Of a stretch of 36,420 nt of DNA, positions 3,364 to 35,895 are shown piece after piece. Location: NCBI GenBank assembly GCA_022792415.1, contig JAAWAY010000151.1, positions 1 through 36,420 of the forward strand, read 5' to 3'. Each line of letters begins with the position of its first letter. Within the stretch, counting starts at the first letter, position 1. A program made the translations under genes and the position numbers. The notes under the pieces are model-generated. The model searched no databases. It was given only the letters and a program-made list of their open reading frames with translations, and had not been told where the DNA came from. The stretch comes from Eggerthellaceae bacterium. GTDB lineage: Bacteria > Actinomycetota > Coriobacteriia > Coriobacteriales > Eggerthellaceae.

Positions 3364-3543
3364 GGCAGCTCCAAACTTGAAATTGATGCCTTTCATTTTT
3401 GCATGTGAAAATAAATTTTAAAATAATCTTTAAATTTATATTTATATAGCTTTGAAAGCAGGTTATGATATCAATCATCAAGTTAGAAGCTATATACTTG
3501 ATCTGTACCCGCCCCGACAAGGAGCGGGGAGGAAGGGAAGACG
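3364..3543. promoter_or_regulatory. Divergent AT-rich lysogeny control region with operator-like dyads
   Basis: Between divergent repressor and early genes; TGATATCA palindrome 3466-3473, ATCAAGT/ACTTGAT inverted repeat 3477-3483/3496-3502, -10-like TATGAT 3464-3469 and TATACT 3493-3498. Confidence 0.7.
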
Positions 3544-7438: not shown

Positions 7439-7731
7439 TGGCGGCCCTGGTGGCGATCTCGCCCGATGACATCCCAGCCGTGCGGGGAGAGGACGACATG
7501 GCGCATAGGCGCGCCGCGTGGAGCAAGGGGATCATGGACGACTTCGTGGCGTCGGGTGAGAGCGCGGCCGAGGTGACCCAGGGGGTCGACGGCAAGCCGT
7601 TCGCGACGCCGAGGGACGTGGTACGTCACGCGACCATGCTGCGCAACCACTACAACAAGCCCGAGTACAGGGGGGTGCGCGTAATGCAGCGCCGCAACCG
7701 CCTGTTCGTAGTCAAGGAGGACAAGAAGTGA
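7438..7731 (+). CDS. Hypothetical early phage protein
   Basis: MAALVAISPDDIPAVRGEDDMAHRRAAW...; ATGA-coupled. Confidence 0.65.
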   Translation: MAALVAISPDDIPAVRGEDDMAHRRAAWSKGIMDDFVASGESAAEVTQGVDGKPFATPRDVVRHATMLRNHYNKPEYRGVRVMQRRNRLFVVKEDKK

Positions 7732-8243
7732 GCATCAACATCGTGAGCATCAGCGGCAACCTGGGGGCCGCCCCGACCCTCCGGCAGACCCAGAGCGGGA
7801 TGTCCGTGCTGGGCTTCAGCGTGTGCGTCAACGACCGCCGCAAGAACCAGCAGACCGGCGAGTGGGAGGACGTGCCCAACTGGATCGACTGCACCATGTT
7901 CGGCACTCGCGCCCAGAGCCTCTCCCAGTACCTGCAGAAGGGCACCAAGGTGTCCATCGAGGGCAAGCTCCGTTGGAGCCAGTGGGAGCGCGACGGCCAG
8001 AAGCGCAGCAAGATCGAGGTGATCGTCGACGAGCTCGTGTTCATGTCGACGAACGAGAGGCCCGCTGCGGCCCCTGCCTACCAGCAGCCGCCCTCGTACG
8101 CCTCGCAGCCCAACATGGCGCCCCAGGCGGCCCCCCAGCCCGTCTACGCCCAACAGCAGGGCTACGCGCCCCAGCAGTACGCGCAGCCCCAGTACGCGCA
8201 GCCCGCGATGCAGGGCATGTACGACGAAGACATCCCTTTCTAG
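7728..8243 (+). CDS. ssb: Single-stranded DNA-binding protein
   Basis: OB-fold MSINIVSISGNLGAAPTLRQTQSGMSVLGFSVCVNDRR...WIDCTMFGTRAQSLSQYLQKG; Q/P/Y-rich tail ending DEDIPF. Confidence 0.97.
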   Translation: MSINIVSISGNLGAAPTLRQTQSGMSVLGFSVCVNDRRKNQQTGEWEDVPNWIDCTMFGTRAQSLSQYLQKGTKVSIEGKLRWSQWERDGQKRSKIEVIVDELVFMSTNERPAAAPAYQQPPSYASQPNMAPQAAPQPVYAQQQGYAPQQYAQPQYAQPAMQGMYDEDIPF

Positions 8244-8251
8244 GGGCAGAC

Positions 8252-8875
8252 ATGGGTTTCTACGTGCAGGACGACTTCTGGCTAGCCATCGAGGACGCCC
8301 CGAAGAGCGCCCAAGACGCCCTGTTCGGCGCGCTCGTCCGTCTCTACTTCACGGATACTGACGAGCCGCCGAAGGGAGCGGCGAAGGGCGTGTACATAGC
8401 CCTGCGCGACCGCGTCCGCAAGGCGAGGGGCAAGTCTCACCCAGGTGTGGCGGGCCGTAAGTCCGGGTCTGATTCGGGCGATAGCGGGAATCAAAACGTA
8501 AATCAAAACGCAAATCAAGTCGAAATCAAAACCGAATCAAACACTGAATCAGACGGCGAATCAAAACCGAATCAAACGGAAATCAAACCTAAAAAGAGGG
8601 AGAGGGAGAGGGAGGAAGAGACTGAGGAAGGTCAAGACCGTGGAAGGGCGCGCTTCCGCGCCCCCACCCCCGAGGAGGTGGCGGCCTACGCCGCCGAGAG
8701 GGGGATCGCAGTCGACGCCGGGCGGTTCTGCGACTTTTACGCCTCGAAGGGCTGGAAGGTCGGCAGATCGCCCATGACGGACTGGCAGGCGGCGGCGCGT
8801 AACTGGGCGCGGCGCGACGAGGAGCGGAAGGAGGGAGGCCATGTCGACCTCGGCGAGTTCGCGGGCTGCTTCTAG
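8252..8875 (+). CDS. Replisome organizer/initiator-like protein
   Basis: N-terminal GFYVQDDFWLAIEDAPKSAQDALFGALVRLYF, low-complexity linker, C-terminal FRAPTPEEVAAYAAERGIAVDAGRFCDFYASKGWKVGRSPMTDWQAAARNW; precedes DnaC-like loader. Confidence 0.75.
   Translation: MGFYVQDDFWLAIEDAPKSAQDALFGALVRLYFTDTDEPPKGAAKGVYIALRDRVRKARGKSHPGVAGRKSGSDSGDSGNQNVNQNANQVEIKTESNTESDGESKPNQTEIKPKKREREREEETEEGQDRGRARFRAPTPEEVAAYAAERGIAVDAGRFCDFYASKGWKVGRSPMTDWQAAARNWARRDEERKEGGHVDLGEFAGCF
8489..8589 (+). repeat. Nine AATC-initiated repeats (consensus AATCAAAACCG), candidate replication iterons
   Basis: AATC starts at 8489, 8501, 8513, 8524, 8535, 8547, 8559, 8570, 8581 (spacing 12,12,11,11,12,12,11,11). Confidence 0.8.
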
Positions 8876-9530
8876 GCCCGTGCCCATCGGGGAGCTGATG
8901 CGGATGAGGCCCCCGAGGCTCATCACCGACGAGGAGGCGGCCGAGATCGAGCGGCGCGAGGCCGAGTCCGACCTACGCACGAGGATCGCCCGGACGGGCA
9001 TACCGCATCGCTACCGGATGGCGACGCTTGCGACATGTCGTCCCGAGGCTGTGGAGTACGCCCGAGCGGTTGTCGAAGGAGAGGGTGTGAACCTCATCCT
9101 TACCGGCCAGGCCGGGTCGGGCAAGACGTACACGGCCTGCGCGGTCGCCCGGGGAATCCTCGGGAGGCGCCGGATGTCTGCCCGGTTCGCCACGATGACC
9201 GACATCCTGTCGGACGTCAAGCGGGCCTACGGCAGCGCGGAGCGCGAGGATCAGGTCATCGACCACTACGCCAACGCCGGGCTGCTCGTCATCGACGACC
9301 TGGGCAAGGAGCGGGCGAGCCAGTGGAGCCTGCCGCTGATCTGGCAGATCGTCAACCGCCGCTATAACGCCGTGAGGCCGACGATCTATACGACGCAGTA
9401 CGGCGACCAGGCCCTGGCGGCGAGGTTCGCCGAGGGGGGCGGGGACGGCGAGTACGCCCAGGCCCTGATGCGGCGCATCACCGACGACCGTCGAGCCGTG
9501 ACGCTGAGGCTGGCGAGGACGTATGCCTAG
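8841..9530 (+). CDS. DnaC/IstB-like helicase loader ATPase
   Basis: Walker A LTGQAGSGKTYTA, Walker B LLVIDDLGKE; overlaps previous ORF. Confidence 0.9.
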   Translation: MSTSASSRAASRPVPIGELMRMRPPRLITDEEAAEIERREAESDLRTRIARTGIPHRYRMATLATCRPEAVEYARAVVEGEGVNLILTGQAGSGKTYTACAVARGILGRRRMSARFATMTDILSDVKRAYGSAEREDQVIDHYANAGLLVIDDLGKERASQWSLPLIWQIVNRRYNAVRPTIYTTQYGDQALAARFAEGGGDGEYAQALMRRITDDRRAVTLRLARTYA

Positions 9531-9870
9531 CGGGGCGGATCTTCAGGCGGCCCTCATGCAGGCCATGGGGGAGGCGCACGAGGCGCTTGACCGCATGGCT
9601 GCCCTGGGCGCCGCCAAGGCAGAGGCCGAGCGTCAGTACCGCATCGCCAAGCGCGTCCGGATCGTCTGGGAGCGCGGCAACGGAACGCCGGTGACGATCA
9701 TCGGTGACGTGGTGTGCGGCTATGACGACATCGCGCAGCTCAGGTTCGCCCGGGACTGCGCGGAGGCGGAGTACGACGCCAACCGCGAGGCGCTTCTGCT
9801 GGCCAAGAAGCAGATCGACACGATCCGCGAGGTAATAGCCAGGGAGTGGAGCGCGGCCCATGGGCAGTGA
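9523..9870 (+). CDS. Hypothetical phage protein
   Basis: ATG overlapping upstream stop. Confidence 0.6.
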   Translation: MPSGADLQAALMQAMGEAHEALDRMAALGAAKAEAERQYRIAKRVRIVWERGNGTPVTIIGDVVCGYDDIAQLRFARDCAEAEYDANREALLLAKKQIDTIREVIAREWSAAHGQ

Positions 9871-10111
9871 CCACGGCACGGTGGCTCGCTACGTGGCGGG
9901 GTGCAGGTGCAGCCGCTGCGCCGAGGCCGCCAGGGAGTACCGCAGGGGCCTGCCGGGGAAGCGCGAGTACTGGGAGGCCCGCAGCAGGGCAGACCGGAGC
10001 GCGCGGCTCAGGGACGCGCTGTTCGCCGCCGAGCTGCACGACCACGCCTGGGTTTACATCCCGGGGGAGGGCATGCGGAGGATAGACCTGCCGCCGATGG
10101 AGGAGCGATGA
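9860..10111 (+). CDS. Hypothetical protein, Cys/Arg-rich N-terminus
   Basis: MGSDHGTVARYVAGCRCSRCAEAAREYRRG; coupled. Confidence 0.6.
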   Translation: MGSDHGTVARYVAGCRCSRCAEAAREYRRGLPGKREYWEARSRADRSARLRDALFAAELHDHAWVYIPGEGMRRIDLPPMEER

Positions 10112-35187: not shown

Positions 35188-35895
35188 ATGGCAATTCAGC
35201 ACAGACGCGGAGTCTACACGAGATTTGACCCCAAGCGCCTGGTGGCAGGGGAGTGGGCCATAGTCCTGTCGGGAGATCCCATCGCCTCCGACGGCATGGC
35301 CGCCTATATCTGCTTCGCCAGCGGTACGGTCAAGCGCGTGGCGACCTACGAGGACATGGCGGACTTCTTCGCCCAGATCAAGGACGACGCGGTGGCCTAC
35401 GTCTACGACGTGTCCACGGCTGACGCTAGGGCCGAGTACGAGCGCCTGCGCGACCTCATGGGGGATCAGGAGGCGGCGCGCGTGCTGGCCGAGGAGGGCC
35501 GCGTCTCAGCGGAGGAGCTGCGCGTCACCGCCGAGGAGGCCCGCGCCATCGCCGAGGCCGCGAGGGCCGCGTCCGAGGAGGGGAGAGACCTCGTCATCAA
35601 GGATTTCGAGCAGAAGGTTGCCGACGGCTTCTTCGACGGCGCCACCTTCCGCCCGGCGATCGACGAGCTGGGCAACCTCTCGTGGAGCAACGACAAGGGC
35701 CTCGAGAACCCGGCGACCGTGAACATCAAGGGGGAGAAGGGCAACGACGGCGTAGTGACAGAGCTGTCTGCCGGGATGTACGCCCTGCAAGTGGAGCCTG
35801 ACGGGCACCTGTGGCTCGTCTACGGGGACGGCGCGAGCCTCCCCGACCTGAGCATAAGCGACGACGGCCACCTGTGGCTGGGATTGGAGGGCTAG
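35188..35895 (+). CDS. Baseplate upper/tail-tip protein with coiled coil
   Basis: MAIQHRRGVYTRFDPKRLVAGEWAIVLSGDP...; EEGRVSAEELRVTAEEARAIAEAARAASEEGRD; GEKGNDGVV. Confidence 0.8.
   Translation: MAIQHRRGVYTRFDPKRLVAGEWAIVLSGDPIASDGMAAYICFASGTVKRVATYEDMADFFAQIKDDAVAYVYDVSTADARAEYERLRDLMGDQEAARVLAEEGRVSAEELRVTAEEARAIAEAARAASEEGRDLVIKDFEQKVADGFFDGATFRPAIDELGNLSWSNDKGLENPATVNIKGEKGNDGVVTELSAGMYALQVEPDGHLWLVYGDGASLPDLSISDDGHLWLGLEG

Follow-up and report, generated by a model that had tools for sequence, protein, structure and literature searches.

A candidate replication origin of helically phased iterons within the initiator gene of an Eggerthellaceae prophage

Introduction

Is a cluster of short direct repeats in the middle of a prophage gene kept for the peptide that it encodes or for the DNA itself, and does it mark an origin of replication? 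The question arises in a prophage contig of an Eggerthellaceae bacterium (JAAWAY010000151.1, positions 1–36,420; this whole stretch of 36,420 nucleotides is hereafter the window), which encodes an integrase, a CI-like repressor, RecT, a single-strand binding protein (SSB), an initiator, a DnaC/IstB-like loader, an antirepressor and a terminase. A first-pass annotation had noticed nine repeats, read in all three frames, inside the initiator gene and had proposed them as a phage origin by analogy with lambda O. Origins within initiator genes are already known from lambda ori, SPP1 oriL and 80alpha, and the locus in the window would join that kind. Comparison of more than 240 related genes adds the generality and the modularity of this arrangement. 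A little-studied gut actinobacterial lineage also gains, for one of its prophages, a concrete, testable origin candidate.

Results

The initiator gene (8252–8875, forward strand; 207 aa) lies between the genes for SSB (7728–8243, forward strand; PF00436, E=3.2e-29; phrog_44) and a DnaC/IstB-like helicase loader (8841–9530, forward strand; PF01695, E=7e-15; phrog_50, DnaC-like helicase loader, E=7e-38), in the order SSB, initiator, loader; a helicase loader encoded next to the initiator is expected of a phage origin embedded in an initiator gene. The initiator falls in phrog_15768 (function unknown in PHROGs), and its initial label, replisome organizer, is right by gene context and architecture, a name that no curated family carries. 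The protein had no NCBIfam match and hence lacks the TIGR02220 C-terminal domain, which 80alpha ORF20 matches at 1.3e-38, and no lambda O-like family appeared among its Pfam, PHROG and NCBIfam matches. The initiator may work like lambda O; relatedness to the lambda O protein family is not supported.

An AlphaFold2 model of the initiator comprised two ordered domains with a disordered linker (about residues 66–130) between them. The N-terminal domain (8252–8449, forward strand; residues 1–66) has three helices (residues 7–15, 18–34 and 44–62), with pLDDT blocks of 83–96 over residues 1–60, and is the candidate iteron-binding domain; since a PDB fold search with this part of the model returned no significant match, we infer DNA binding rather than read it from a proven fold. 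No close relatives by N-terminal domain alone were found among the viral contigs searched. The C-terminal domain (8648–8821, forward strand; residues 133–190; FCDFYASKGW type), conserved in 188 distinct genes, is compact (pLDDT 95–98 over residues 141–190), and we propose it as a candidate partner of the helicase loader or the helicase. Iterons and tandem array lie wholly within the disordered linker, and the hairpin extends into the beginning of the C-terminal domain.

Nine direct iterons with the core RAATCAAAMC occupy 8489–8590 on the forward strand. Their AATC(A) starts, from 8489 to 8581, are spaced by 12, 12, 11, 11, 12, 12, 11 and 11 bp exactly as claimed at first pass, and so is their reading in three frames (gene frames 0, 0, 0, 2, 1, 1, 1, 0, 2, giving NQ, NQ, NQ, IK, ES, ES, ES, NQ, IK). 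The 46-bp superperiod also seen at that stage is true of the spacings (8489, 8535, 8581), but we assign it no meaning; relatives simply mix 11 and 12. The repeats form an A-rich island in GC-rich DNA, 8491–8590 being the second most AT-rich 100 bp of the window (37% GC vs 63% overall), and GC3 is 0.33 in the iteron codons vs 0.83 on their N-terminal and 0.92 on their C-terminal side, the value for the window's remaining genes being 0.86. A window-wide scan counted 62 pairs of repeated 6-mers at distances that are not multiples of three in 8481–8660; the next best 180-bp segment had 12, and the median was 1. The off-frame repeat score of the linker was higher than after codon permutation (mean 3.1) or synonymous shuffling (mean 16.0; both p<=0.005). 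AATCAAAMC, with at most one mismatch, occurred 12 times in the window, 7 times inside the iteron array; 4.3 occurrences were expected, and 100 shuffles gave at most 9. The initiator coding sequence thus holds nine candidate sites beyond both chance and the demands of the protein, and no second comparable repeat cluster was found anywhere in the window. GC skew, suggested earlier as a check, gave no origin signal at the iteron site. Just upstream, in the opposite orientation, a possible extra iteron (AATCAGACC, 8466–8474, reverse strand; 1 mismatch) may be due to chance.

Relatives were found by protein and alignment searches and chosen by protein similarity, mostly of the C-terminal domain, not by repeats. 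The searches gave 188 distinct genes that share the C-terminal domain of the window gene; the analysis covered 179 of them, in 169 clusters, with hosts among Coriobacteriia, Clostridia, Bacteroidales, Proteobacteria, Saccharibacteria and others; a second set comprised 74 independent clusters with another C-terminal domain (TIGR02220). Linker DNA of the relatives held a mean of 17.2 off-frame repeated pairs vs 6.05 expected after synonymous shuffling, an excess significant at 0.05 in 54% of genes, compared with 6–8% for N- and C-terminal controls.

Spacing of the repeats followed the turn of the helix. Pairs of repeated 6-mers within the iteron part of the 169 genes numbered 156 at a lag of 10 bp (10.8 expected), 407 at 11 bp (9.9 expected, a 41-fold excess) and 404 at 12 bp (26.7 expected), with further peaks at 20–24 bp (lag 22: 322 vs 9.5 expected) and around 30–36 bp. 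Across these relatives, lags of 8 and 9 bp were barely enriched (15 vs 10 and 44 vs 28 expected), and there was no enrichment at 13, 14, 25 or 26 bp (lag 13: 10 vs 11.3 expected). The dominant spacing was not a multiple of three in 59 of the 109 genes in which one was clear. The TIGR02220 set replicated the peaks at 11–12 and 22–24 bp (lag 11: 74 vs 3; lag 22: 135 vs 5), and neither set had the 10–12 and 20–24-bp peaks in its C-terminal controls. Because codons allow 9, 12 and 15 bp, whereas the helix explains 10–12 and 20–24 bp, helical phase and not codons sets the spacing. We regard this as the strongest evidence that the DNA is the selected object, as first suggested for the window alone: among the 169 relatives, iteron sequence varies widely, yet spacing clusters at one or two turns regardless of frame. 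Seven genes of the TIGR02220 set have a dominant spacing of 15 bp, a class that breaks the one-turn rule.

Downstream of the iterons lies a 31-nt homopurine tract (8591–8621, forward strand), noted at first pass and the only purine run of at least 20 nt in the window, which contains a 6-bp tandem array (AGAGGG x3.3) and is a candidate unwinding or strand-loading tract; it is strand-asymmetric and, after its first bases, not AT-rich. A small inverted repeat (GGTCAAGACC, 8630–8639), read in the sequence, also folds in the single-strand fold, and a hairpin follows just after the array (8640–8667; core GGGCGCG-CTTC-CGCGCCC at 8646–8663). As single-stranded DNA, 8625–8670 folds at -13.3 kcal/mol (z -3.4); the iteron stretch folds no better than shuffles (z +0.8). 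Because the hairpin overlaps conserved codons for ARFRAP, it could be incidental in the window.

Both sets of relatives have a common linker anatomy, with phage-specific iterons, then often a 5–6-bp tandem array and then often a hairpin. A metaprofile aligned at the C-terminal domain gave the order iterons, period-6 array, hairpin, C-terminal domain: the rise in repeats begins near -200, period 11–12 is strongest from -120 to -75 and period 6 from -60 to -45 (0.50, compared with 0.26 in the background), and hairpins fall between -30 and 0. A period-5/6 array was present at the matching position in 60% of the 169 relatives and in 0% of the C-terminal control. Stems of at least 6 bp end the array in 50% of relatives in the 169-cluster set vs 10% of controls, an enrichment that is weaker in the TIGR02220 set (24% vs 11%). 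We found no description of this general plan in the literature searched, whose coverage of subscription journals was slight. In most genes the hexamer periodicity was no stronger than the dipeptide repeat implies, as judged by synonymous shuffles, so selection on DNA and on protein is inseparable for the 6-bp arrays; only 5-bp arrays break the frame (13% at >=0.75), and the purine excess was just modestly above that of codon-permuted versions. Given the weak hexamer excess, modest purine skew, codon overlap and uneven hairpin enrichment, the roles that we assign to array and hairpin are proposals, whereas that of the iterons is well supported.

A reading of the array as DnaA-trios was rejected, autocorrelation being weak at period 3 (0.29–0.34) and strong at period 6 (0.50). 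In three relatives (L233, L238 and L239) it is the coding strand of the array that is rich in pyrimidines (TTCCTATTCC, TTCCTCTTCC); the strand asymmetry can thus be reversed relative to the gene. Hairpins after the array in L001, L016, L156, L201 and L213 share a CCTAACGG centre, with the stem closed by C-G around TAAC, and hairpins with this centre occur in unrelated hosts.

Iterons tended to change together with the N-terminal domain, which lends indirect support to this domain as their binding partner. Across relatives, iteron similarity had a partial correlation of 0.16 with N-terminal similarity and of -0.04 with C-terminal similarity. Staphylococcal genes of the 80alpha and phinm2 types have array, hairpin and C-terminal domain in common and differ in N-terminal domain and iterons, and phage 77 represents a third staphylococcal N-terminal type with a third iteron set, its hairpin unchanged and its C-terminal domain almost so. 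Closer to the window gene, L016 and L023 pair a window-like N-terminal domain with a TIGR02220-type C-terminus. AATCAAA-type iterons recur in L023 (N-terminal identity 33/62) and L241 (27/64), where they are read in different frames and accompany another C-terminal domain. Relatives that keep the linker peptide and lose the repeats had been named at the outset as evidence against a DNA target; these two show the reverse, retaining the repeats in other frames with a poorly conserved linker peptide. The more similar L016 (38/62, 61% N-terminal identity) has iterons different from those of the window gene, so iteron specificity is not a simple function of overall N-terminal identity, and the rule that iterons follow the N-terminal domain is statistical and not strict. 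The hairpin GTCGGGCAACCCGAC stands between array and TIGR02220 domain in staphylococcal L219, L221–L223 and most of L245–L324, with the loop changed to an AAA type in L250; L476, L451 and L481, which come from other phages, have hairpins resembling it.

Discussion

We consider it very probable, from sequence comparison, that the phage has its replication origin at 8489–8667, within the stretch of the initiator gene that encodes the disordered linker. How this origin would be bound and melted, receive the helicase and start replication we infer as follows. The N-terminal domain of the initiator would bind the nine iterons about one helical turn apart, so that a nucleoprotein complex would form on one side of the DNA and melt the strand-asymmetric 6-bp array next to it. 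Together with the neighbouring DnaC-like loader, the C-terminal domain would place the host helicase on the opened strand, and the hairpin may mark or stabilise the point where the opening ends. On this view the linker peptide would be a mere hydrophilic spacer, its sequence a by-product of the DNA.

The lambda O analogy drawn at first pass stands in that both have iterons in an initiator gene, but 80alpha ORF20 is the closer precedent (PMC5499656). ORF20 and ORF21 are necessary and sufficient for autonomous plasmid replication, and a deletion of ORF20 was not complemented in trans, which the authors took to suggest an origin embedded within it (PMC5499656); the 80alpha record DQ517338 carries an annotated rep_origin at 9674–9899. 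Like the window gene, ORF20 lies beside a DnaC-like loader gene and contains iterons, short tandem array, hairpin and C-terminal domain. Unlike it, the window gene has an FCDFYASKGW-type instead of a TIGR02220 C-terminus and another iteron sequence, and we saw no N-terminal sequence similarity between the two. In lambda ori, too, iterons in the middle of gene O precede a purine-asymmetric tract, A+T-rich with its purines almost all on one strand; binding of O opens this tract (PMC5043065, PMC7466680), and in the lambda sequence an inverted repeat, TCAGAGAATTCTGGCGAATCCTCTGA, follows it. In contrast to the nine short direct iterons of the window at about one turn, lambda has four internally inverted iterons of 18–19 bp at about two turns (20, 24 and 23 bp), and it uses loader P where the window phage has a DnaC/IstB-like loader; we set the proteins of the two phages side by side by role and not as homologues. 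SPP1 oriL, within gene 38, has direct repeats and an AT-rich unwinding element, gp38 binds there and loader gp39 takes part (PMC6316719). We liken it to the window by description and not by sequence, for its direct repeats inside an initiator gene and its helicase loader; it differs in having a second origin, oriR, and in encoding its own helicase.

Other explanations of the repeats place selection elsewhere. The linker might be a low-complexity protein segment expanded by replication slippage, its DNA repeats a side effect without any role as sites; it is indeed predicted to be disordered, in-frame repeats are present too, and 6-bp arrays encode dipeptide repeats, AATGAC x4 (NDNDNDND) having been read as a possible protein linker (PMC12403621). 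We regard this as very unlikely, because 10-bp and 11-bp spacing shifts the frame and gives different peptides, spacing in unrelated genes tracks the helix and not codons, codon choice is strongly shifted at the iterons alone and some arrays have 5-bp units. A control element in the mRNA, acting on translation or stability through the purine tract and the stable hairpin behind it, is barely credible: the window has no Rfam match except a tRNA, the iteron stretch lacks any folding advantage over shuffles, and helical-turn spacing has no reason at the level of RNA.

Initiators of iteron replicons often autoregulate, and helix-phased direct repeats suit any cooperative DNA binder, so the initiator or another regulator might bind the repeats to repress its own operon, with replication starting elsewhere. 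That we hold to be highly improbable, as the sites lie mid-gene and are followed in relatives by array and hairpin, the window offers no other such cluster, and 80alpha ORF20 could not be supplied in trans (PMC5499656).

If the repeats do form an origin, the relatives suggest a wider reading, which we hold tentatively and rate a little below an even chance: that one modular plan serves many unrelated N-terminal types, iterons travelling with the N-terminal domain and the 5–6-bp strand-asymmetric array and hairpin with the C-terminal domain, the array offering the C-terminal domain, the loader or the helicase a lattice for engaging one strand at fixed steps. Were this so, the dipeptide-repeat linkers common in phage replication proteins (ERERER, NDNDND, QTKPNQTKP) would be translated origin DNA. 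Exchange of N-terminal domain and iterons as one unit would account for changes in phage replication specificity, and in replicon compatibility, through a single recombination in the linker. For many prophages the comparison also yields a rule for finding origins, namely to look in the initiator linker for repeats every 10–12 or 20–24 bp and then a short tandem array.

Three further features of the prophage deserve mention. A tRNA-Leu (TAA) at 60–142, beside the integrase gene, is the likely attachment site. The most AT-rich stretch of the window (3381–3480, 21% GC) sits between the gene for the CI-like repressor and the genes that follow, contains imperfect 12-bp repeats (AAAATAAACTTT) and is probably the lysogeny operator/promoter region. 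At 35488–35557, a putative tail-protein gene carries a 21-bp tandem repeat with 30 in-frame vs 12 off-frame pairs, which looks like protein-level repetition and offers a useful contrast to the iterons.
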